Below, piece after piece: positions 31,319-64,000 of a stretch of 64,000 nucleotides of DNA. Source of the DNA: Prorocentrum cordatum (lineage: Eukaryota > Sar > Dinophyceae > Prorocentrales > Prorocentraceae). The stretch lies in the NCBI GenBank assembly GCA_963575745.1, contig CAUYUJ010001326.1, forward strand, positions 22,501 through 86,500. Reading direction: 5' to 3'. Each line of letters starts with the position of its first letter. Position 1 is the stretch's first letter. The notes under the pieces are model-generated. The model had not been told where the DNA came from and did no database searches. It saw only the letters and a list, made by a program, of their open reading frames with translations. Both the position numbers and the translations under genes were made by a program.

Positions 31319-31388
31319 ATACTTCGAGTTTTGGTGTTTGGTCAGGCTACACAGGGCGCGTGCGCCCAAGCCTAAGGGCTAGAGCCAG

Positions 31389-34300
31389 TTAAATCCGCCT
31401 CCTCCGCTTTGCAGAGGAAATTTCTTTAACAATGTGCTCCACACCTGTGCACAGGCGCTCGGCAGCAGATAATTCTGCCTCCGTCACGGTGGCACCTACA
31501 TCAAACATGTAGGCTTCTGAGCTCACGAGTGTCCACGGGCCATTCTCTGGAGCAACTTCGATCCAGTGACCTCCTGCAGCACCCTCACTGCTCACTCCAC
31601 CATCCCAGCATCCTCTGATGTATTTGATGTTTGTCCTGTTCTGTTTGATATAGTCGTGCTTGTAAATTCTGTAACAGTTTCCTTCTCTCGCATGGTGTGT
31701 CAGCTCATCAGCATAGGCATTGGCTTCCCTATAGATATGTTTCCAGAAATCCCTACCGTACGTCGGGCATCGTATGTTGTGTTGTTCACTCACGTCATAC
31801 ATGATATTTTGTATCCTGGCGATCCGTTTGGCATACCCACTGTTGTCACAGGCCCAGACTCCCCTCAACCATTGTACGACCGTTTTACTGTCTCCGCACA
31901 TTTCAACAGCGATACCTTCCATCCCAGGGTCCCATATCGTAGTCTGTTCATTAATAACTGCAAGACGTCGGGCCAACTCGTCATCTGTCGGTGTCTTCGC
32001 AAACCCTCCCATCCTCCTCTCCTTACTCCTCCTCACAAACATATCCTCCACTTTGGGTATCTGTGATATGTGTTCCACAAACTCCTCCCAATCCGTCGGT
32101 ACAACGCACGTGTCGTGCCACAGAAGCGACCTCCATTTTTCAAAGGGTGCATGCCAGCTGCTCGCCACGATTCGTGGTCTGCCTCTGAGCCGTCTCGTTC
32201 CCTCTCTCGACATCGTCCGACTTACTGCCGCCAGCATTTCATCCCTCTGCACCGTCCACTCCCCCGATACGTGCAACATGGAGCGCAGCGTCTGCTGCCA
32301 CGATTTGCTATACACAGTGGACGGCATGTGGCACTTATATTGGGATACCTCCACGGCGAATTCAAAGTTGTACCTCACAACTTTCTCCACCAACGTTTTG
32401 AACCCCCCCTCCTTGAACATCTCCCTGGATCTGTTGGTACTGCGATCCCTGAACTCCTCCCACGTTTCCGTCTCTTTTCTATGTAATCCCCGCATTGTGT
32501 TCAAACATCTTCCTGCAAAGCTCCTCAATATGTTCAGCACATGTTCATTACAGCTCCACCCCACACATCCATGGCATATGATCTGTTGAACTCTGCTCTG
32601 ATACCGTCTGAATTTTTCCCTCATGCTCACCGCGCGTGATCGATAGAATTTAATATCAGCATAGAAACACCGCCTGCCTGCATCAATACGGTGCCGCACT
32701 GCATGGAAATCCCTCGGGTTCGTCACAAATTTAACTCCCAGTATGTCGCACTCGCTTTTCCTCGGCAAAACCACCGCCTCCCGTAATTGATCGGGTAGGC
32801 TGGGGTCTCCAGCCCGTGCACAAATATCATCTCCCAGTTCGCAAACTAATGATTGTGGTCCCTACCAGCCCGTCTGAGGGCCATACCAGCCGGTCTGAGG
32901 GCCACGGTCAACATACTCACCATATTCCTCAGCTGATCCGCCGAAGATGCCAGCAGCACCACATTGTCAGCCCATATGTAATGATTGACCAGCGCCTGTT
33001 GTGTCCCCTCGCCTTCCAAACGTACTCCATAATGACATGCTTCCCATGATTCAGCAATAGAGGCCCAAATTGCCTCCAACACAATATTGAAGAGTACTGG
33101 GCCTTCTTTCCCTCCAGTTCGCACCGACTTGTTATACAGGATCTCTTCGCTGCACACATCCTGGAAATCAAAAACTGCTGTGTTTCCAATCATAGGCTCC
33201 ACAATTGCAATAATCAGATCTGTTGGGTATCTCAGATGTTCCATCGCGCGGATCACCATCGAGACAGTGACATGATCAAACGCTTTCTTTATATCCATTA
33301 TTCCCATATGTACCGACTCGCCTTTTCCCCAGAGAGTGGCATGACGTGTCATGTGCAGCAAAGGGGCCGTCATGTGATGAACTTTGTGACTCTTCTAGAA
33401 TCCATATGTCGCCAATTTTTTGATATGTCCATGTTCCTCCACAAGAATAAGAAGGCACGCCATGTACCACTTGCTCATAACACTCAACAGCGATATTGCA
33501 CGAGTCTCCCCAAATGTTTGGATCATGCTCATTTTTGGAATCAACTGCACGCACAACTTTCTCCACGAATCAGGTGACGACTTTTTCTGATCATGTATTT
33601 CTTGAAATGAGTGTCGTATCAATCTCAATGCATTCCAAGGTATTGCTTTGAGAATCTCCGCCACCAGGCCATCAGAGCCCGCTGCGGTGCCGCCCTTCAA
33701 TCGGGCTCGAGCCCCCAGCAACACACCCATAGATATGACCCTGTTCGTAGTTCTGCCCTCTGCCTCCCACTGTGTCCGTAGTCGATGCAACTCTCTCTTT
33801 GCAGCTCCTCCCTCCCCATCACATGTATATGACCGTTGTACGTGTTTGTTGAGCTCCTCCACCCATCTTTGTTTATTTTCTGTCAGTATCCCGTCACACA
33901 GCATTTCCTTGATACACCTACGGGGTCCATGTTTGAGGCCAGTGGAGTCCTTGAGGAGCTGTTCCCGCCTGAACTTTCTTCGGAGTGTTTTTTGACGTCT
34001 CAGTAATTGTTTCCTACGCTCACCGAAGACACCCCTCCTTAACTCCGCTTCAACGTCCACGAGTTGGTCAGGTTTTTTGATTGGTTTAGTATCCGCCCTG
34101 CCCTTTGTATGCCTACACATCGTCGCAGCACTCACAAGCATCTGTCCAACTGTTTGTATATTTATGTCACCCTGTTGGTTCATATGTTGTTGTACCTGCA
34201 CATCGGCCAGTGTACTGAACACATTCGCTGACTCATAATCCTCCGGGGCCCAATTGATGAGGCTCGGGGGCCTGGGTCGCACGAAAGGCTTGCGCACCGA

Positions 34301-35062
34301 CACATGTTTTATCCTCACCCCTACCTTCGCATGGCCACTGTAGCGTGACGCTCGATCCTGTGTAGGATCCACAAATTCCACCGTGCATTCAAATGAGCAG
34401 TTGGTCCGAGCCACCTCGGTACCTGCAAATTGTGTCGGCACAAATACATAGTCCAACACCCTGGAGTAGCTGCTGGTACTCCACGGCCTGTGCGTCACTT
34501 GTCGCACGCCGTAGGTGTTGGCTGCACAAAGACCCCAGTGATTCAGAAAGCGCACGAGCATGTCCCTCCTCTCCTCATGATGTTTCGCCTCCGACCTCAT
34601 CCACACCTCCTCCAATCCTTCTCCCGTGAACCCCAAGAGATTTGGTTCCAGCTCCGTCTGCGCATCTGTCCCCACAAACTGCAATACTTTGGACCCCTGG
34701 TATTGCTCGCTACATAGTTGCATGCATGCACACAGCTTAGCTAGAACGTCACAATATTCATCGAGCCTATCATCTCCCCGCTGCACTGTGGGTAGGTACA
34801 CTGAGGACACAACCACAGATGCAAATTGTACAACAGCAAACCTCTCACCGCACTTACTGTCCGAAATAGTCGCCGCCCATGGGCCCCTGAAGGCCACAGC
34901 AGCTCGTCGGCACACACTAAAACGCACCTGCCACCCACATGCTTCAAATGCTGCCGATGACATGTACTGACACTCCTGCAAGCATAGCACATCATAATGA
35001 CAAAACTCCAGCATTGCTGGCAAAAGCTCGCTATTCCTCATGTTGACATTCCAAGTTGCCAC
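31389..35062 (-). pseudogene. LINE ORF2: AP-type endonuclease, reverse transcriptase, permuted RNase H
   Basis: The endonuclease (exonuclease-endonuclease-phosphatase fold) starts at ATWNVNMRNSELL. It shows the LQECQ glutamate, VGTDAQTEL (GDxN-type), LDYVF and SGHAKVGV, where Gly replaces the catalytic Asp of SDH. RT motifs: GGTAAGSDG, motif A MDIKKAFDHV, motif B RTGGKEGPVLFN, motif C YIWADNVVLL. The C-terminal domain (31892 down to about 31470) has GDSKTVVQW, YREANAYADELTHHARE, CWDGGVSSEG, TVTEAELSAAE: RNase H motifs in permuted order. Three defects: in-frame TAG at 33395-33397 (GF-stop-KSH, where RT families have an Arg or similar residue), a frameshift near 32860 beside a 21-bp tandem duplication, and the SGH change. 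Otherwise collinear over about 1,220 codons, so decay is recent. Confidence 0.85.
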
Positions 35063-35089
35063 CGCGAGCTGAGTGGCAGACTGGCACCG

Positions 35090-36586
35090 TCAATTGTTCG
35101 TCTGTCTGAGCTTCGTGAGTAACCCCTCTTGATCCACCTCAGGCTCCACCCTCCTCAGATTATTAGTGTGTAGCGCCCACCCGCTGTGCACACCCCACTC
35201 AGCAATCAGTACTCTTGTGTCTGGATCTGCCTGTGGGTTTTGTGTAAACCATATGTATGATTTTGGCGGCCCTGGCTCCCCCTTGCACATTGTCCCCGTC
35301 GTTTTCTTCACTTCCGCAAAGCAACTCTGGAACTTACCAACCTGTTGGACATGGGGTGTTCTCCATGGCGCGCATTCTACATGAAACTTTACATTCGGTG
35401 GGAGGTCAGTGTTTCCCCTCTTGTATTCGCTGTCGAAACAATTCCGAACCTGCCATATGATATCCACTGCCGTCCCCTTTTTGAAATAGATCCGCCCTCG
35501 TGTGTATGGCCAGTACCTGCCAGTATTCTCCCCCGCAGTTCTCGCATGATCAAAAGCAGCATTATGTGTTGCGTCCAGCGATGCCAATCCCAATAATTTC
35601 GTTATGTTGTCGGTCAGCACCTGTTGTTTCATGGCCTCCCTTTGTTTTATCTCTCTATTCTTCCAACCCTCACGTGATATCCATCCTTTGAACTCAATAT
35701 ATGATGGTACCCAGTTCGAATTATGCCCTGCACCACTGCCCGCGTCACCTGATCCGTATCTAGTCGAACCGCTTGCGCAAGATTGAGCGTCTCCATTTTT
35801 CAGATTCTGAATGTCAGCTTGGGCCTGTTTCATTTGCTCCGATAACGTTTTGACATCTGACGTTGTTCTATCAATCTTCTCCTCCATGACATGTAAATCA
35901 GCTGCAACCGATGTTTTGAACTCACTAACCGTCGCAGTTACTTCACTCTGGCCTTTCAAAATCTGTCTGAACATTTCCTCGGGCGTCATTGTAGCTGGTT
36001 GAGGTGCCTGGACAGCAGCACTTTGGGCCACGGCCAGACCACCCGTAGCATTGGGGACTCGGGCTGTAGCTAAATGAGGCGCCTGGACAGCAGCACTGGA
36101 AGCCGCGGCCAGACCACTCGAAGCACTGGAACCGTTGCCCTCCCCTTTCGCCCTCACCTCTCTCAACCATTCACTACTCGCATTCCCTCCCATTTTGCTA
36201 TCTTCTGCTTTGTCATCCGCCATGATTGCTGGCGAACGTCGTTTATTCCTCTCTTTGACTGTACGCAATGTGTGAAGTGCAGCCTGATATCTATCTGATT
36301 GCCCAATCTTCTTGAAATCGTACGCCTCCTGCTGAACAAATGCCTCTGGTGGAGAAATTTCCAACTCAAGTGCTATCTGATCTTCCCTCTTCTCCTGCGT
36401 CGTTAATCGCGGCACAGTAGCTGATGTGTCTTTCAACCAGTCACACGGATGTGGGTCACTATCCACACCAAAGTCAGCTGACGTGAAATATTCACTCTGA
36501 TCGTCTTCTGACGGTATAATATATGCTCCCTGCGAGTCCGTTTTCAATCCAACCGCCCACAGTGGTCTTTTGTAAAATCCAGACAA
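35090..36586 (-). CDS. LINE ORF1-like protein, 498 aa
   Basis: Open for 498 codons. The N-terminal third is acidic and polar. An Ala/Ser-rich linker (about residues 150-200, AVQAP repeats) precedes a probable coiled coil (about 200-265, with heptad-like EEMFRQILKGQSEV...VKTLSEQMKQAQADIQNLKN). The C-terminal part (about 300-480, WVPSYIEFKGWISREGWKNR onward) may bind nucleic acid, by analogy with coiled-coil plus RNA-binding ORF1 proteins of other LINEs; I cannot identify an RRM with certainty. It ends in TGA and the ORF2 reading begins 25 bases on in the same frame, so the two may once have been one polyprotein or be joined by readthrough. Likely role: RNA packaging of the LINE transcript (inference). 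Confidence 0.65.
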   Translation of the reverse strand: MSGFYKRPLWAVGLKTDSQGAYIIPSEDDQSEYFTSADFGVDSDPHPCDWLKDTSATVPRLTTQEKREDQIALELEISPPEAFVQQEAYDFKKIGQSDRYQAALHTLRTVKERNKRRSPAIMADDKAEDSKMGGNASSEWLREVRAKGEGNGSSASSGLAAASSAAVQAPHLATARVPNATGGLAVAQSAAVQAPQPATMTPEEMFRQILKGQSEVTATVSEFKTSVAADLHVMEEKIDRTTSDVKTLSEQMKQAQADIQNLKNGDAQSCASGSTRYGSGDAGSGAGHNSNWVPSYIEFKGWISREGWKNREIKQREAMKQQVLTDNITKLLGLASLDATHNAAFDHARTAGENTGRYWPYTRGRIYFKKGTAVDIIWQVRNCFDSEYKRGNTDLPPNVKFHVECAPWRTPHVQQVGKFQSCFAEVKKTTGTMCKGEPGPPKSYIWFTQNPQADPDTRVLIAEWGVHSGWALHTNNLRRVEPEVDQEGLLTKLRQTNN

Positions 36587-36806
36587 ATCCTGATCTTCCT
36601 GCGATCCCCACGATATCTTGATATCAAGGACGAGAGCGAGGATTCAATGTGAACACAGCCCCCGCGATACGTCAAACACGCACCGCACGAGAGGGGGGGC
36701 TTGAGGCAAGCCTGTGTGTGCGCCCTGACGTGGGCCCTGTTCGACGTCGAACCCTGACGTCTCGAACCCTGACGTCTCGAACCCTGACCCTCGAATACTT
36801 CGAGTT

Positions 36807-37240: not shown

Positions 37241-37243
37241 TAC

Positions 37244-37273
37244 TGGCGCCGGCGGTGAACCGTCAACCTAGTT
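37244..37273 (+). repeat. Left half of foldback module split by retroposed insertion (copy 3)
   Basis: GGCGCCGGCGGTGAACCGTC then the TSD CAACCTAGTT. The right half resumes at 39687 (ACCGCCGG...CCTCGTAAAGCTCC). Confidence 0.88.
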
Positions 37274-37429
37274 TTTGCGGTCTTTTGCGGACGGTCGATT
37301 CGAGCCTCCACGGAGGCAGACCGAAACACAAAGCAACTCAGAACAGAGCCTGAGAGCAAAACGCTGAGCGTACTAACAGCGAAGCTGTACAGCAATGCCC
37401 AAAAGCGTATATTACACTAAGAATCAACT

Positions 37430-37575
37430 CAAATAAAATAAATAATAAAAGCAATGCGAGACCATACAGTAACCGCATATAGCGATTACCGTCTCAGCAC
37501 CACTAAAATAGAAGCAGGGAGAGACCATACAGTAACCACTGGTTTATACAGCGATTACCGTCTCAACACCACTGA
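37430..37575. repeat. Two direct repeats able to form hairpins
   Basis: GAGACCATACAGTAACC ... GCGATTACCGTCTCA occurs twice (about 37459-37497 and 37520-37564). In each, GAGAC pairs with GTCTC and GTAAC(C) with (G)ATTAC. They lie in the 3' untranslated part of the retroposed insertion. Confidence 0.65.
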
Positions 37576-37894
37576 GAAAGAACACGAAACTAAGAGAACT
37601 GAGATAGCGAGTGTGCTTTGACACCATGCCTAAGTGAAACCTGGACGTGTGAAACCATGTCTAAGTGAAACCTGGTGTCGACCATACCAAAGGCCTACTT
37701 TGAGGCACCACGTGACAAATCACGGAAAGTCACGTTCAAAGGTCAATGAGCACTCATATGGAAGCAACGAATGACCTAAGGGATCAGGCGAAGCTCTTAT
37801 TCAACCTACGCGCATGCACGACAACACACACAGGCATGAAGAAAGGCAACGCAATGTAGAAAAAAACATACGTGCAGGATCAATCACATGTGCA

Positions 37895-39425
37895 TCATCT
37901 GTGCCGTTTCCGATGCTTCTTGCCGCTCCGCGTCAATGCACTCCTGGAAGTAGAACTCTGAGGACCCCCTTGTTGCGAATCATCCTCCTCGGAACTTTCA
38001 ATTTCCAAGTGCAGCCTGTATGCATTAAGAGCCTCAGTCCTACGCTGAAGCTCCTGTGTCGGGAGTCGGTGTAGCTCAAGCCAAAGAGCCCTCATATCGA
38101 CACCGGCAAGGGCCCAGTCCCTGGCAGCTTGGCACTCAGAGCGTGTCTCACTCGGTCGATCTGCAGAACTCCCATTCATGGAACTCCCTACTGCATCAGC
38201 TGAACTCCCAACTGCAGAACTCCCAGCTGTTGGACTCCCAACTGCATCCTCAACTGCATCAGCGGAACTCCGAACTGTGGAGCTTCCCTCTGCTCTCCCA
38301 AGTGTTTTAACTCCCGACTGCACTGGAACTCCCGACTGCATCAACTGTACTCAAAACTGCGGTACTCTCCACCGCACTCCGGTTGGTCGCATGCAATTCT
38401 GAAGTGTGCAACTTTGCACTCTCGATAGTCTCCGTTCGTTTGAAACAATATCTCTTCATTCTGAGAGAAGCATCACCCCGATCAACGTGCACTCGATGAC
38501 ACTCCTCCTTCTCCCCCTCACCAACATGAACAAAATCCTCCTCTGCCACCTCCTCCTGCTCCATCTTAGCACCTGCTTCACTATGAACATTCTCCTCCTC
38601 CTCGTCCTTGCAGCCAGGGTTCGATGCCACAGCATCAGCTGAAATCCAAACCGCGGTACTCCCAACTGCAGAACTCCCAGCTGTTGAACTCCCAACTGCA
38701 TCCACAACTGCATCAGCGGAACTCCGAACTGTGGAACTTCCTACTGCACTCCGAGCAGTGGAACTCCCGACTGCACAGGAACTCCCAACTGCAGAAGCAT
38801 CACCCTGATCAGCGCGCACTCGATGACACACCTCCTTCTCCTCCTCACCAACAAAGAGAACACAAAGATCAGTCTGAGTCCCACACTCAATGTGAACACA
38901 GGGATCTGTCTGAGTCCCACAATCGGAACACTGCGAACGCAAAGAGTTGCCAGCCAATTCAACAGCATCCATATCAGTCTGTGTTCCACAAGTGTCCTCA
39001 ACCCACTCCTCTTCCTCAGAATCGCCCGAGCAGATATTCCGATAATATCTGGGCGCGAAAATGCCCGCGCGAACAAGGCACGACGGATCTGGCCCCCGAG
39101 CCGTGGACCACAAACGATACCTGACACGTTTCGCCCGCAGGCGGCGCAACTTCGATTGAGAAACTTTGACGCCATGCCCATACAGCTGGTCTCGCTCACG
39201 CATGCGAGACTCACCTCCGTACGAAGGGCGAACACGGCAATATAGATCACTAACACACACTTCGACCGTAGACAGACGAGCAGACAAACAAGCGAGAGAC
39301 TCGGAAGTAAACAACGCCGTATCTGTCCAATCTGAAGCAAGAAAATCCGCGCCTGACAATTCAGATGAAACAAACTCCATATATAAAAACGTGGATCGCT
39401 CTACAAGAAGGCAAATCACAAGCAA
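37895..39425 (-). pseudogene. Unrecognised Ser/Ala-repeat protein with CGTQTD motifs, frame-broken
   Basis: A 372-codon frame (39425-38307) is followed in another frame by a 149-codon one (38344-37895). Both contain the same AVGSS/TAGSSAVGSS repeat, so they were probably one protein of about 520 aa split by a frameshift inside the repeat. Order: hydrophobic and neutral N-terminus; a basic patch KLRRLRAKRVRYRLW; acidic SGDSEEEEWVED; three CGTQTD motifs (residues about 143-185); the AVGSS repeat array interrupted by a Glu-rich segment; and a C-terminus with WLELHRLPTQELQRR, acidic ESSEEDD and a basic tail GKKHRKRHR. TQT resembles dynein-light-chain binding sites, but that is weak inference. I do not recognise the family; an ORF1-like carrier protein is one possibility. 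Confidence 0.5.
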
Positions 39426-39686
39426 TGACTAGATGGACAGTTGAGATAACCAAGGAAAATGCTGTTCCAACGATACTGCGACAATCTCAACAATTATATG
39501 CACTCCGACGACAATCAATAAGAGGCCTTCGACTAAGAGTGTACGGTACTCAGGCAAAACAGACACTGAAGCACCGTGCACGGTAAAGAGAACCAAACGC
39601 CAGGCACGGCACGATGCCGCTCGAGGAGGCCTCCGACGGGCCAGGTCGCCGCTGAGATCCCGAGGAGGGACAGCAGCAACCTAGTT

Positions 39687-54388: not shown

Positions 54389-54422
54389 ACTGGGCGCCGG
54401 CGGTAAACCGTCAACCTTTGTT
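54389..54422 (+). repeat. Left half of foldback module (copy 16) at a LINE junction
   Basis: ACTGGGCGCCGGCGGTAAAC then CGTCAACCTTTGTT. The right half is missing: host sequence resumes at TAGACAATATTTAATGTGG near 54894. Confidence 0.85.
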
Positions 54423-54894
54423 TTTGCTTTGCTCGGAGCCCACAGGGACAAAGGAGCCCCCGCTCAGGATTCAGGTCCGCAGCAGAGGAGCAGCAGGTGC
54501 TCGACACCTTCAGCGAGGCGCTTGCTGGCCAAGAGCTCAGCTTGACTAACCGTGCAGGTCGGCGGGATGGCGGCAGCCTCAGAAGCTAAGTCGAATAGCC
54601 AAGAGCCTTGAGAGTGTTGAAGAGCAGGGAGGGGGAGCACGAATAGGTCAATAACCCAACCAATGCCAACACCGTGGGAGGAACGACCACCATCGAAGTA
54701 GCCGCGAATCCCTTTTATTTGTTCCCTTCTGAGAGTATGATTGCGCGGGTCGAAAGTACGGTGGCTCTGGCCGGTGCGGGCCTTCCAAGTTTCAGCATCA
54801 GCACGCTCGTTTCCCTCACGATAAAACCACTTCCATGGATCTAATCCCCAAGACGGCGGCCTCAGGTTCACGTGATAGTTAAGATGTAATCTAG
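54423..54894 (-). mobile_element. 5'-truncated LINE fragment
   Basis: The 3' end (minus strand) reads GAGCAAAGCAAA and joins the module immediately after GTT. Only the last part of the RNase H region remains. No TSD is recoverable, because about 27 bp of the target (TACCGCCGG...GCTTCC) is deleted on the far side. Confidence 0.75.
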
Positions 54895-54896
54895 AC
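54464..54896 (-). pseudogene. LINE ORF2 C-terminus, permuted RNase H half
   Basis: About 140 codons: YREGNERADAETWKAR (last-Asp motif, residue about 34), IRGYFDGGRSSHGVGIGW (first-strand Asp, about 69), TCTVSQAELLASKRLAEGVE (Glu motif, about 121), stop. This order matches the three other copies. The GDS strand would lie upstream and is lost by 5' truncation. Similar to but clearly diverged from the elements at 56 and 61 kb. Confidence 0.8.
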
Positions 54897-54961
54897 AATA
54901 TTTAATGTGGAAAAAAATCCAGAGAATTTCAGCCCAAGCCAGACCTCTCAAGATGACTCTG

Positions 54962-55014
<53 letters not shown>

Positions 55015-56002: not shown

Positions 56003-56036
56003 ACTGGGCGCCGGCGGTAAACCGTCAGGCTTTGTT
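56003..56036 (+). repeat. Left half of foldback module (copy 17), split by LINE
   Basis: ACTGGGCGCCGGCGGTAAAC C then the TSD GTCAGGCTTTGTT (56024-56036). The right half resumes at 58472 with ACCGCCGGGGGACTCG. Confidence 0.9.
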
Positions 56037-56095: not shown

Positions 56096-58458
56096 CTAGT
56101 CTCTCTGCAGCTGGAGGTCTTGGGCCACCTGGACTGCGGCCCGCAAGAGGCCCTCGAGACCCGAAAGCTCAGCGTCAGTGATACTGCTATGGGAGGGGAG
56201 TGCCTGTGCACAACGCCCTACTATTTCCCATATGATTGGACAAGGAGAGGAGGCTTGGGGGAAGAGGGAGACTACACGAGCTCTCTTATCTCTATGCTCA
56301 GGGTCAGGGTAAGGGTCATGGAATCGAGGAATATATCCAATCTGCAGAAACCAGCCAACGCCCACACCTTGGGCACACACTCCGCCGTCGAAGGATCCGC
56401 GGAGGCCAATAACTCGAAAGTTGTCTCGGACATCAGAACGAAAGATATGGTGGTGGAACAGCTCTCTGAATATCTGGCCTTCCCGTGCTAAGTGGGTAAG
56501 TTCATCAGCTACTGTGTTACTCTCTCGATATATGTGTCGAATGAAGTCGTTGCCCCATGAGGGGGGTCGTATTCCTTCCTCCTCCAACTCTTCCAAAAGA
56601 GAAATAATATTTGCCACCCGCCTACGATAAGAAGCCCCATCTCCTCCTTCTCCTCCCTCAACCTTCCAGAGACCATTGATCCAGTTACAGATAAGAAGCG
56701 AATCGCCCGTCAGCTCGAGACCGATCCCATCATCACTCAGATCCCAAGTCGGCTCCTGTTCATTGTTCGAGGCCAATCTCTGGGCCAGCTTCTCGGACTC
56801 CTTCGCCGACAACGGACGAGCCAACATCTCCTCCCCCCTCTCCTTTATGTAGTCTCCTCTCCCTCCAGTTCCTCCACGGACAACAAACAAGTCAAACAGA
56901 GACCCCAAAGTACAAGCTTCCAGGAACTGCCTGCAATACTGAACGAAGTCAGAGTAAGAGAAAGAGCACGCCCTCCACCACCGATCCTCCAGATTCACAA
57001 ACGAGGGAAATATCGTCTGGAACATGAAACACCAAGGATGTTCACCCGTCGCCTGCCCCTTAGTACTGCCTAATCGTGTCAGTTTCGAGGCCTCCTTCCA
57101 CTTCCACTGTGAACGCCAATATTTTGACTCAGTGTCCTTTTCTCCTCCCACCTCGGGGTACAGCACATCAGAAGCCGGCGTGCGTCACGATGCGCACGAG
57201 GATACACCGTCTGTTGTCCAGGTCCAGGAACAGCCACCCTCCGACGTTTCGGGGGGGGCCTGGGGGAATCCCTAGGCCCCCCCCGCTCACAGGGAACTTC
57301 AACATCTCGAGAAGAAGAGGCCCTATCAGAGGGCATAGCAGAAGAGACCATCCCATGCATATCTGAAGAGACAGCGCCCATCCCATTCGTATCTGAGGAG
57401 ACTGCGCCCATCCCATTAGTAACTGCAGAGACAGCACCCATCCCACTGGTAACTGAAGAGACTCCCACCATCCCATTAGTAACTGAAGAGACCACACCCA
57501 TCCCACTGGTAACTGGAGAGACCATCCCATGCATATCAGAGACAGCACCCATCCCACTGGTAACTGAAGAGACTCCCACCATCCCACCAGTAACTGAAGA
57601 GACCACATCCATCCCACTGGTAACTGGAGAGACCATCCCATGCATATCAGAAGAGACCACACCCATCCCATTCATATCTGAAGAGACTGCACCCATCCCA
57701 CTAGTAACTGAAGAGACAGCCCCCATCCCATTGGTAACTGAAGAGACCTCCCCCATCCCATTGGTAACTAGAGAGCCCGCGACCATTCCTGGGCTCAGCT
57801 CCGACTCAGGAATCTGATATCCGCTGTCGACATTAGCTCCAAAATATGATGCTATGTCAGCTCCAAGCTGCCACAAGGAATAAAGAACTCTCTGCACTGC
57901 ACTCTGGCACTTTGCTTCAAAGAACATCCGTCTAGCAATTCTGAGTCGAGCTGGCTTCCAAACAACCCAACTTTCGGAGGCTGGCTTTTGGGGTGACGTC
58001 ATCTGGTAAAGACAATTTCCCTCAAAGACATTCAGGCTCTGCAAGGAGTCCCTGTCCCAACTAATACCTTGACTTCCATAAATGAGAATGCTCTGAACCC
58101 GAGTGATATAACTCCTACACTTGGCCGAAAACGGGACTGCCTTTGATCTAAAATAAGCTGCATGCGCATGGAAGGCTCGTCGCGCGGCCCCGATCCGCCG
58201 CCGAAGGTCCTGGTGTGCCTCCCTATAGCTACAGTATATGCTGTTCCCCAAGACATTCATCTCATCAACTACTTTGAACGGCACCATCTGATCCTGAACC
58301 CGAACCAGGATAGGATGTTTTGGCTTCTCCGAGAAACCGATAAACGCGACCTCGAGCGACTCGATCTTCCATTCGAATCCCCATCCCCGCAGAGTCTCTG
58401 TCATGTCTCCTACCTGTCGCCTAAACTCCTCCTCCGAAGATCCCAAGATAAAGATGTT
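56096..58458 (-). pseudogene. LINE ORF2 fragment: RT thumb/connector and complete permuted RNase H
   Basis: Starts at NIFILGSSEEEF, the residue after (WA)D of RT motif C. A conserved connector follows (NVLGNSIYCSYREAH, RRAFHAHAAYFRSKAVPF, SLNVFEGNCLYQM, with counterparts in the elements at 32.7 and 63.3 kb), then a 10-residue repeat region (57775-57345), a frameshift near 57170 and a second open stretch of 356 codons (57166-56096). The latter ends in the RNase H motifs TGDSLLICNW (Asp codon 56704), YRESNTVADELTHLARE (56506), SFDGGVCAQGVGVGW (56389) and ITDAELSGLEGLL (Glu codon 56170). All four acidic residues are present in permuted order. Confidence 0.85.
57345..57775. repeat. In-frame 24-30-bp minisatellite inside LINE ORF2
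   Basis: About 16 units of the type ACTGAAGAGACAGCACCCAT CCCACTGGTA, a few shortened to 24 or 27 bp. Minus-strand translation is a run of SSVTSGMGAV-like decapeptides. All unit lengths are multiples of three, so the frame is kept. Confidence 0.9.
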
Positions 58459-58471
58459 GTCAGGCTTTGTT

Positions 58472-61674: not shown

Positions 61675-61708
61675 ACTGGGCGCCGGCGGTAAACCGTCTA
61701 CCTTGGTT
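61675..61708 (+). repeat. Left half of foldback module (copy 21) at a LINE junction
   Basis: ACTGGGCGCCGGCGGTAAAC then CGTCTACCTTGGTT; the LINE begins at the next base. The other half would lie outside the window. Confidence 0.88.
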
Positions 61709-64000
61709 TTTTGCGGACTTTGCGGTCGACTGTGCAGGCTTTCCAGCCTAGTCGGAAGCAAGGAGCGGGCGCATCGGGAGTGGGCGGAAGCCTCACCGAT
61801 CCAAACGATCAGAGGCGAAAGCCAACTCTTATTAGGAGGATGAGAGGTCAAGCACACACACGACAAACGAGGGCATGGCGTGAGTGAGCACAATCAAAAT
61901 CACATCATATCCTGTCCGAAATACGCTTGTACAACCCGCGGCAAGATCATAATCGTATGCTCAACGGCCGAGACCTCGGCATCAGTCACTGTTGAAGTTG
62001 GATCAATCGAGAACGCCGCACTATACACCTCCGTCCAAATGATCTCATGGCTGAGTGGCTGCCTTGAGAGTCTCGATACCCTTCCAACATCTATCCAGCA
62101 CCCGACTCCCACGCCGTCGCAAGAGACACCACCATCGAATCCAGCTCTGATGGCACAAACGCGAAACACCTGTTGTAACTGAGGGGCGTGAAGCCCTATC
62201 CTATCTCGAATCACTGGTGGCCCGACGCGGGCCGTATGAGTGAGTACATCTGCACGTGTGTCCCATTCCCTATACGTGTGGTCAATAATTTCCCTCCCGT
62301 GACAGGCGGGCCTAATTCCATATCTTTGACTCATGTTGTCGAGTTGGTTAATCATTCTGTTGATCCTATCTTGATACGTACGATTAAGTACCCTCCAGAC
62401 ACCCTGCAGCCAAGACACCACCAGAAGACTGTCCCCAAAAATATACACAGGGATCCCAAATGAGTCGAGGTCGTACTCAACCTCCTTCATATTTTGTAAC
62501 GCAATACGTTTGGCCAGTTTGTCGTTGAACGCCGCAGTGCCCTCTTGGGCCCCATAGGTGTGTAGGTCGCTTTGTGTGATAGTAAGTACCTCCTGCGGGG
62601 CCCCACCTGTTGCACCGTACCCTTTTCTTTTCTGAAAGTAACTCAGCATCGTCCGTGTACACATGTGCTCGCAGAACTGAACATACGCAGCATCTGTCGG
62701 CACAAAGGACTCCCACCATTTGAGTCCGTAGAATTCGCAGAAAGAAAATAACCAGCATCTCTGGCCGACAGCTCGACCTGAACTAACATGTCTCCTTTTT
62801 AGCTGCGAGGCCTCTTGGAAGTGAAACATACCCCGCAAGCACTCAGACGCATCCGTCCTGAGTCTGTCCCACAATGGGCCATACGCAACCGTAGTCATGT
62901 GATGATCTCTCCACGTACGTTGCGTCGAGGATATATCCTCATGAGAAGCAGTACACATCATAGAAATGAAATCTGCAGCATCCTTCGCGGAGTTCCACAC
63001 CATACGAAGAAATCTCTGCACCAAACTCGCAAATCCATAAGATCGGAATTGCTCTCTGGCCTCGTGGTACCGTCGTCGGTTCCAGTCCGCCATAGTCTCC
63101 TCCTCTCTCCTCGGCCGTCGAAACATACGGCGCAAACACCATCCCTCGAAGGCATTGAGCATGTGTAGCGAGGAAGCGTCCGCAGTACATGTCTCTAGAC
63201 AATACAACGCCATACTCTGCACCTTATCTTGATAACGGCAAAACTTATCACGAACAGCAACCGCTCTGTTACGAAAGAAATTCGATTGTCCAATGAAACA
63301 AGCTCGAGCCTCCTTGATGCGATATTCAACATCAGGATGAGCAGGCACTAGGTATGTGGAGAAAATCTCATGACCCAATACTTTCAAACTGCCAACACGT
63401 CGAAGTCTAAAGCCCTGATATCTCGAGCACGCAGGTATACACAAATCCTCGCTGGTAAGTATGTGTCCGTCACCGTCCACTTTAGCATTCTCCCCACATG
63501 TCATGTACAACAGGCTGCTGTCCTTCCATCTCATCCCCCAGTCATGTAGTGGTAGTGTTAGATCGTGCATCATCTGAGCCAACATAGTTGAGGAGGCAGA
63601 GACGAGGTAGCAGTTGTCCGCCCACACAAAGTGGTTCACAGTTGTCCGTCGCTCATACTCACCACAGACGCCCTCCAGCACATACCCCACACCTCTACTG
63701 TCCCAATCCCGAAATATAGGTCCCCACATGGCACATATGATAAGATTAAATAGAAGAGGCCCCTCAGGGCCGCCCGTCCGTATGCAGACGTCCCAGTTGA
63801 TGTCGTGAATGGCCATACCCTCGACAACTAACGACCCCGTAGTGCAAACCAGCGGTGATAGCAAAGCATACTGGAGATAGGCAGGAATGCTTGCATGGCA
63901 CATAGCACGTTTGGCGTTTAGAAGGCTGCAGTGGTCGAACGCTTGTTTGATATCGGCGTTAGCGATATGGACCGTCTGATCTTTTCCCCAGACGTCCCCA
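61709..64000 (-). mobile_element. LINE, 3' part, running off the right edge
   Basis: 3' end on minus reads GTCGACCGCAAAGTCCGCAA AA. A 3' UTR of about 190 bases separates it from the ORF. The 5' part and second TSD copy are not in the window. Confidence 0.85.
61900..64000 (-). CDS. LINE ORF2 (partial): intact RT palm and permuted RNase H
   Basis: An uninterrupted reading of 699 codons continues to the window edge; the true start lies outside. RT: WGKDQTVHIANADIKQAFDH (motif A Asp), IRTGGPEGPLLFNLI (motif B), HFVWADNCYLVSAS (motif C with WADN). The connector includes KVLGHEIFSTYLVP, ACFIGQSNFFRNRAVAVRDK and HMLNAFEGWCLRRMF. The C-terminal domain has VYIFGDSLLVVSWLQG (Asp codon 62433), TYREWDTRADVLTHTAR (62250), IRAGFDGGVSCDGVGVGCWI (62136) and STVTDAEVSAVEHT (Glu codon 61977), then a tail of about 20 residues. 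All catalytic-type acids are present, so it may be functional if its 5' part is intact. It would copy LINE RNA at the target by target-primed reverse transcription (family knowledge). Confidence 0.85.
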   Translation of the reverse strand, partial: GDVWGKDQTVHIANADIKQAFDHCSLLNAKRAMCHASIPAYLQYALLSPLVCTTGSLVVEGMAIHDINWDVCIRTGGPEGPLLFNLIICAMWGPIFRDWDSRGVGYVLEGVCGEYERRTTVNHFVWADNCYLVSASSTMLAQMMHDLTLPLHDWGMRWKDSSLLYMTCGENAKVDGDGHILTSEDLCIPACSRYQGFRLRRVGSLKVLGHEIFSTYLVPAHPDVEYRIKEARACFIGQSNFFRNRAVAVRDKFCRYQDKVQSMALYCLETCTADASSLHMLNAFEGWCLRRMFRRPRREEETMADWNRRRYHEAREQFRSYGFASLVQRFLRMVWNSAKDAADFISMMCTASHEDISSTQRTWRDHHMTTVAYGPLWDRLRTDASECLRGMFHFQEASQLKRRHVSSGRAVGQRCWLFSFCEFYGLKWWESFVPTDAAYVQFCEHMCTRTMLSYFQKRKGYGATGGAPQEVLTITQSDLHTYGAQEGTAAFNDKLAKRIALQNMKEVEYDLDSFGIPVYIFGDSLLVVSWLQGVWRVLNRTYQDRINRMINQLDNMSQRYGIRPACHGREIIDHTYREWDTRADVLTHTARVGPPVIRDRIGLHAPQLQQVFRVCAIRAGFDGGVSCDGVGVGCWIDVGRVSRLSRQPLSHEIIWTEVYSAAFSIDPTSTVTDAEVSAVEHTIMILPRVVQAYFGQDMM

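Follow-up and report, generated by a model that had tools for sequence, protein, structure and literature searches.

A candidate circularly permuted RNase H domain at the C-terminus of LINE ORF2 in Prorocentrum cordatum

The 64,000-nucleotide stretch of the dinoflagellate Prorocentrum cordatum analysed here (contig CAUYUJ010001326.1, positions 22,501 to 86,500; hereafter the window) carries four copies of a long interspersed nuclear element (LINE) whose second open reading frame (ORF2) ends in an RNase H-like domain of unusual order. This C-terminal domain is quite likely an archaeal-like RNase HI (RVT_3 type) that has undergone circular permutation in nature. Canonical members run through their strands (b) and helices (a) as b1-b2-b3-aA-b4-aB..aE, whereas in the window b4 to aE come first and b1-b2-b3-aA follow; the domain is therefore placed as a permuted relative of RNase HI and not as a canonical member. 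At the motif level the general order is GDS, YRE..AD, (F/W)DGG..G.G and T..AE(L/V), with all four motifs present in three copies and the last three in the fourth, 5'-truncated copy. The coding strand is the minus strand in all copies.

Order of the motifs and conserved residues

A sequence-only reading of the window had proposed this order for the copy at 61.9 kb, and it was recovered there: GDS, YRE, ADVLTH, FDGG and TDAEV close an open frame at 61903-63999 (-). The domain, from the b4 strand to the C-terminus, spans 61903..62460 (-), with the stop codon at 61900-61902. Its first part, equivalent to the second half of RNase H, lies at 62164..62460 (-; GDS 62428-62436, YRE 62266-62274, ADVLTH 62236-62253), and its second part, equivalent to the first half, at 61903..62163 (-; FDGG 62128-62139, AEV 61972-61980). 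The same reading had held that the order recurs elsewhere in the window, as is the case: the domain is whole in the copies at 31.4 kb (31392..31919, -; GDS 31887-31895, ADELTH 31695-31712, WDGG 31596-31607, AEL 31470-31478), which was the target for AlphaFold, and 56.1 kb (56099..56731, -; GDS 56699-56707, ADELTH 56492-56509, FDGG 56381-56392, AEL 56165-56173), and is present from YRE on, without b4 and GDS, in the 5'-truncated copy at 54.5 kb (54467..54901, -; YRE 54815-54823, ADAETW 54785-54802, FDGG 54686-54697, AEL 54533-54541).

These three were the other domain-bearing places reached by the 61.9-kb protein (P0001) in tblastn against the window (E up to 0.01), with identities of 29.6% at 31.4 kb (E 4e-46), 31.0% at 56.1 kb (1e-31) and 30.4% at 54.5 kb (1.6e-7). 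The closest pair among the four copies was 31 kb versus 54 kb (40.5% by tblastn), and identities to the first row of the alignment were 30-37%. Since the order is common to copies that are only 29-40% identical, it is not explained by a single rearranged copy, in agreement with what had been argued before. No relatives were found outside the window in viral contigs (four protein queries and one DNA pattern), genome contigs (domain alignment) or phage records (P0002), nor were canonical relatives found in viral contigs with a Sulfolobus RNase HI query.

Across the four copies, 21 of 131 gap-free columns are invariant. Residue numbers follow the model of the 31-kb domain. Asp or Glu occurs in any copy in 32 columns, only four of which are invariant: E127 (of YRE), D133, D168 and E211. 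The last three are predicted catalytic residues, kept in 4/4 copies, and the fourth predicted catalytic acid, D72 (the Asp of GDS), is kept in all three copies that reach that site. Given what we take to be the canonical places of the four acids in RNase H elements, the alignment and the structural model yield a complete set of predicted catalytic residues, Asp-Glu-Asp-Asp, and the earlier statement that the acidic residues are kept stands. The Arg of YRE is likewise invariant (4/4) and aligned with the Arg of (I)PRE in canonical proteins. The semiconserved R/H place of the domain thus holds Arg and not His; it is Arg in archaeal-like RNases H and His in others, according to the relevant passages of PMC5348765. 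Judged by these conserved residues, a working enzyme is plausible.

Profile matches and predicted structure

The first part of the domain gave a strong profile match to the second half of RNase H. Pfam RVT_3 matched the 31-kb protein over the cut-off (E 1.8e-6) on the second-half equivalent, the piece from b4 on scoring 27.7 bits; the 56-kb copy remained under the cut-off (12.4 bits, and 14.8 bits in a second Pfam run), and the 61.9-kb copy had no RNase H match in Pfam. Searched against PDB, the four-copy profile found RNase H 3u3g (E 8.4e-4, profile 73-148 to chain 69-134 of 140), and the second half of 4h8k aligned with the domain's first part (E 6.3e-3); no RNase H was found in a single-sequence PDB search with the 61.9-kb copy. 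HHalign, run against an alignment of the query sequence with 73 RNase H domains from bacteria, placed the first part on template columns 60-122 of 124 (P 2.5e-7). With a HMMER second-half profile, the scores of the three long copies were reached by 0, 2 and 1 of 1000 shuffles (0 for the 61.9-kb copy), and that of the truncated 54-kb copy by 86/1000. A gapped profile comparison of the first part with the canonical second half was equalled by 0/2000 shuffles with lenient gaps (z 9.7) and by 1/2000 with stiff gaps (z 5.3), while the control against the canonical first half was equalled by 1881 or 1829 of 2000, depending on gap cost. Compared with RNase HI enzymes such as LC11-RNase H1 (PDB 3u3g, 4h8k), the second half and the catalytic acids are alike, but strand and helix order differ, the first half coming after the second here.

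The AlphaFold model of the 31-kb copy, made with four input sequences, reached a mean predicted local distance difference test score (pLDDT) of 76.7 and a predicted template modelling score (pTM) of 0.73, with both parts confident. Its predicted series begins with b4 (65-71), aB (74-81), aD (89-109), b5 (121-123) and aE (126-140) and continues with b1 (160-172), b2 (175-186), b3 (192-200) and aA (207-235); D72, D133, D168 and E211 lie in the expected elements. In VIA-align, the second half of RNase H1 fitted the model for 3aly (model 62-143 to chain 65-135) and 4e19 (55-143 to 91-199), and 3u3g and 4h8k paired model 53/54-145 with chain 24-140. The RT-RNase H (reverse transcriptase, RT) of foamy virus, 7o24_C, aligned over 72 residues, model 55-231 to chain 585-661 (range ends only), a chain segment that presumably holds b1 to aA. 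There was no RNase H in the higher VIA-align rows, which excludes nothing. Foldseek gave no RNase H among the best 50 matches listed against PDB; among the best 50 listed against BFVD, three were named ribonuclease H (64, 71 and 93 columns, E 0.04 to 0.18).

The last part, alternative readings and known systems

The last part was matched to the canonical first half by a tailored three-anchor test, in which ungapped segments b1, b2 and aA from canonical proteins were required in order, with column shuffles as the null, and in which limits and allowed spacing were set after the motifs were known. The four-copy columns scored 7.4 versus -15.9 +/- 3.8 (0/1000 shuffles), and the single copies were equalled by 3, 4, 0 and 0 of 500 shuffles (31, 61.9, 56 and 54 kb); the first part, as a control, gave 24/300. 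Taken alone, the aA segment was equalled by 0/2000 shuffles and b1 by 61/2000. The aA profile had its best place in the whole region at the C-terminal TxxAE site in 4/4 copies, and for the b1 profile the DGG site was best in one copy and second best in the other three. In the gapped profile comparison, the last part versus the first half was equalled by 121/2000 shuffles with stiff gaps and 16/2000 with lenient ones, against 988 and 1119 of 2000 for the wrong (second) half.

Besides the late choice of limits and spacing, several results count against a permutant, and the sequence case for the last part is weaker than that for the first. Pfam recognised the last part in neither the original nor the un-permuted order, and un-permuting the domain was dropped as a source of Pfam support for the moved half, the score showing no real gain. 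The HMMER first-half profile was not significant (107, 54, 178 and 24 of 1000 shuffles for the 61.9-, 31-, 56- and 54-kb copies), nor was HHalign between the last part and the canonical first half (probability 0.2%). As to whether the two halves might belong to different domains, which would have told against the sequence-only reading, the 31-kb model predicts the RNase H elements in permuted order, in support of that reading, but the 61.9-kb model is poor (pLDDT 44.2). The stretch upstream of GDS also bears a weak resemblance, without explanation, to the second half (47 and 62 of 2000 shuffles).

One alternative, in keeping with the recognition of the first part alone by Pfam, HMMER and HHalign, takes this part for the remnant of an RNase H that has kept its second half only, and the C-terminal part for an extension of unrelated or recent origin whose motifs arose by chance. 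We consider it very improbable; the three-anchor results, pooled and per copy, speak against this, as do the invariant Asp and Glu and the predicted b-b-b-a series of the last part. More improbable still is an ordinary RNase H whose first half, upstream, can no longer be recognised after divergence, with the beginning of another, incomplete RNase H behind it. Some colour is lent to this by LA.RLA..NE, a conserved helix upstream: the RVT_3 alignment for the 31-kb copy takes it in, starting at profile position 20, and in two of the three copies reaching that far it ranks second among the aA places. However, the whole 31-kb protein scores 28.3 bits versus 27.7 without the helix, a gain of only 0.6, and the best upstream aA place, which in the column test is not this helix, was equalled by 1702/2000 shuffles. 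The check for a normal first half upstream of GDS, run on three copies, found none: no b1-b2-aA series is present there (three-anchor test, 190/300 shuffles), the gapped profile of the upstream stretch versus the first half was equalled by 280 and 316 of 2000, and residues 1-40 of the AlphaFold model have a mean pLDDT of 34-44 and no strand.

Two further alternatives accept the permuted order. The domain might be non-catalytic, with a fold retained for structural connection, as in some dual-RNase H elements where the first RNase H has degenerated; catalytic residues have been lost from the original RNase H in several long terminal repeat (LTR) elements, as the pertinent section of PMC5348765 describes, yet here no copy that reaches them lacks any of the predicted catalytic acids or the Arg of the R/H place, E127 being the only other invariant acid, and we regard a non-catalytic domain as unlikely. 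Complementation of the two parts across two ORF2 molecules, in a domain-swapped dimer, is distinctly unlikely: cis and trans arrangements are indistinguishable by sequence, but the single-chain model, with the pTM given above and both parts confident, would speak for one chain.

For the active permutant, the chain would start at b4 with the Asp of GDS and proceed through aB, aD, b5 and aE, which would contribute the Arg and the Asp of the YRE...AD motif; some 20 residues of new linker would then join aE to b1 (Asp of DGG), b2, b3 and aA, whose Glu (of AEL/AEV) would stand near the protein end. Once folded, the domain would have its four acids together in a two-metal site of the usual kind, and the permutation would leave the metal-binding set complete. 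RNase H-bearing LINEs remove template RNA after first-strand synthesis at the nicked target. By analogy, ORF2 would nick the target and prime first-strand DNA on its own RNA, and the RNase H part would clear the template RNA from the RNA/DNA hybrid, enabling second-strand synthesis. The permuted domain is probably an active enzyme, stripping off template RNA in the course of target-primed reverse transcription. A closed active site, catalysis and a role in transposition are what we infer. A wider proposition, to which we give only slightly better than even chances, is that this active permutant arose once, before the present diversity of the LINE family, defines a LINE clade, is the first case in nature of an RNase H fold with permuted topology and was fixed since the new termini put the catalytic Glu helix at the ORF2 C-terminus and b4 next to the RT part. 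Textbooks explain circular permutation by a tandem duplication of the domain whose outer halves are then lost, and we would guess that this route operated here; no clear vestige of it was found in the window. The upstream helix was considered as a vestige of the ancestral aA from a duplication intermediate and dropped, the column test being no better than shuffles.

The nearest known systems are the plant Ta11 L1 and oomycete L1 LINEs, in which an archaeal-like RNase H (aRNH) lies at the ORF2 C-terminus (PMC5348765, in the portions concerned). They share with the domain the extreme C-terminal position in LINE ORF2 and Arg in place of His in D-E-D-R-D, and an RVT_3 match is present here; unlike them, with a CCHC motif upstream and no mention of permutation in the text as word-searched, the domain has a permuted order and no CCHC was seen by eye. 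The RNase H-like superfamily has fold elements and metal-binding acids in common with the domain, and the variants treated in the pages concerned of PMC3985635 comprise a C-terminal helix in another orientation, additional strands and a displaced catalytic acid in RuvX and Tex; a search of its main text for words starting with permut or circular found none. For Symbiodinium retrotransposons including SymbioLINE-Dnmt, a figure legend of PMC5890265 lists endonuclease, RT and RNase_H jointly for two kinds; where its text assigns RNase_H, it is tied to a DIRS-like Pol, and the LINE passages name neither RNase H nor permutation. The texts word-searched were PMC3985635, PMC5890265, PMC5408684, PMC3710099, PMC5348765 and PMC4640811. 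No description of a permuted RNase H domain of this kind was found in the literature searched, which leaves out many subscription papers and preprints, and exact phrases for permuted RNase H returned zero papers in PMC.

Few folds are as widespread or as well studied as RNase H, and no permuted member is named in the main text of the superfamily classification consulted here (PMC3985635). If the reading is right, a natural permutant kept through deep divergence would indicate that the fold tolerates new termini in evolution. It would also account for the failure of profile-based annotation to see RNase H in LINEs of this kind (Pfam reports a half domain over the cut-off in one copy and nothing at 61.9 kb), and would provide a marker for a LINE clade and a way to test why LINEs repeatedly gain and reshape RNase H.

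The LINE and its insertion sites

One LINE is seen end to end, spanning 5464 bp (31331..36794, -) within 177-bp satellite repeats and between 12-bp target-site duplications; the repeats, AACTCGAAGTAT, at 31319-31330 and 36795-36806 are the only two places of that word on that window strand. It comprises an ORF1-like frame of 517 amino acids (35090..36643, -; Pfam matches only below cut-off) and an ORF2 with an AP-endonuclease-like part (33395..35089, -), borderline in score (Exo_endo_phos 24.5 bits at a cut-off of 24.5, E 2.6e-5, profile 1-53 of 225), an RT part (32846..33394, -; RVT_1 E 4.9e-14, WADN motif) and the permuted domain, whose stop codon (31389-31391) lies 58 bp from the element end. 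In this copy ORF2 is broken twice, by an in-frame TAG and by a change of frame. The ORF1-like frame and the endonuclease part share one frame, split by a single TGA (35090-35092, -), for which readthrough or reinitiation is conceivable. At 61.9 kb, an open ORF2 fragment of 699 amino acids runs from RT to the permuted RNase H (61903..63999, -; WADN 63613-63624), stop-free for about 2.1 kb to the window edge. Both copies spanning the motif whole have WADN at the RT active site, Asn standing where the usual xxDD ends in Asp. Inside the 56-kb ORF2 copy, between the RT and RNase H parts, there is a tandem repeat (57347-57769) with units of about 30, 60 and 111 bp.

A two-copy RT profile searched against PDB (E up to 1) gave nine matches, all of them R2-type proteins, LINE-1 proteins or unnamed RTs, where 8gh6 is taken by us to be R2. 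The element thus has a LINE-type RT preceded by the borderline AP-endonuclease-like domain, together with target-site duplications of variable length (12 bp at 31 kb, 11 bp at the 56-kb copy) and 5' truncation, seen in that 56-kb copy. As the endonuclease-like part, the RT and the permuted domain stand in one element, the domain belongs to a LINE of the AP-endonuclease (APE) type. Rfam gave no match in the window at the gathering threshold.

The 31-kb element sits in satellite repeats and not at the palindromic host repeat (GGCGGTAAC CAAGGTTGAC GGTTTACCGCC-like) at the same point of which three of the RNase H-bearing copies (54.4, 56.0 and 61.7 kb) and a fourth insert (37.3 kb) end. The occupied sites are 37242-37264, 54390-54412, 56004-56026 and 61676-61698; the right arm of the repeat has 20 matches in the window (up to 4 mismatches), the 16 others lying between 29.5 and 60.6 kb. 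The shared end point suggests target-site-specific insertion. An 11-bp duplication, CAAAGCCTGAC, lies on either side of the 56-kb copy, at 58459-58469 and 56024-56034, within the palindromic repeat. At the 5' junction of the 54-kb copy (54870-54990) the left arm of the target repeat is absent by eye, as if a short target deletion had accompanied insertion. The fourth insert, of 2.4 kb (37274-39676, -), has a 10-bp duplication, AACTAGGTTG, at the same palindromic target. It was not matched by tblastn of the LINE proteins, and its frames P0009 and P0010 encode VGSS-like repeats, P0009 without a Pfam match. Its 3' end resembles by eye that of the 61.9-kb LINE, of which it is perhaps a non-autonomous partner.
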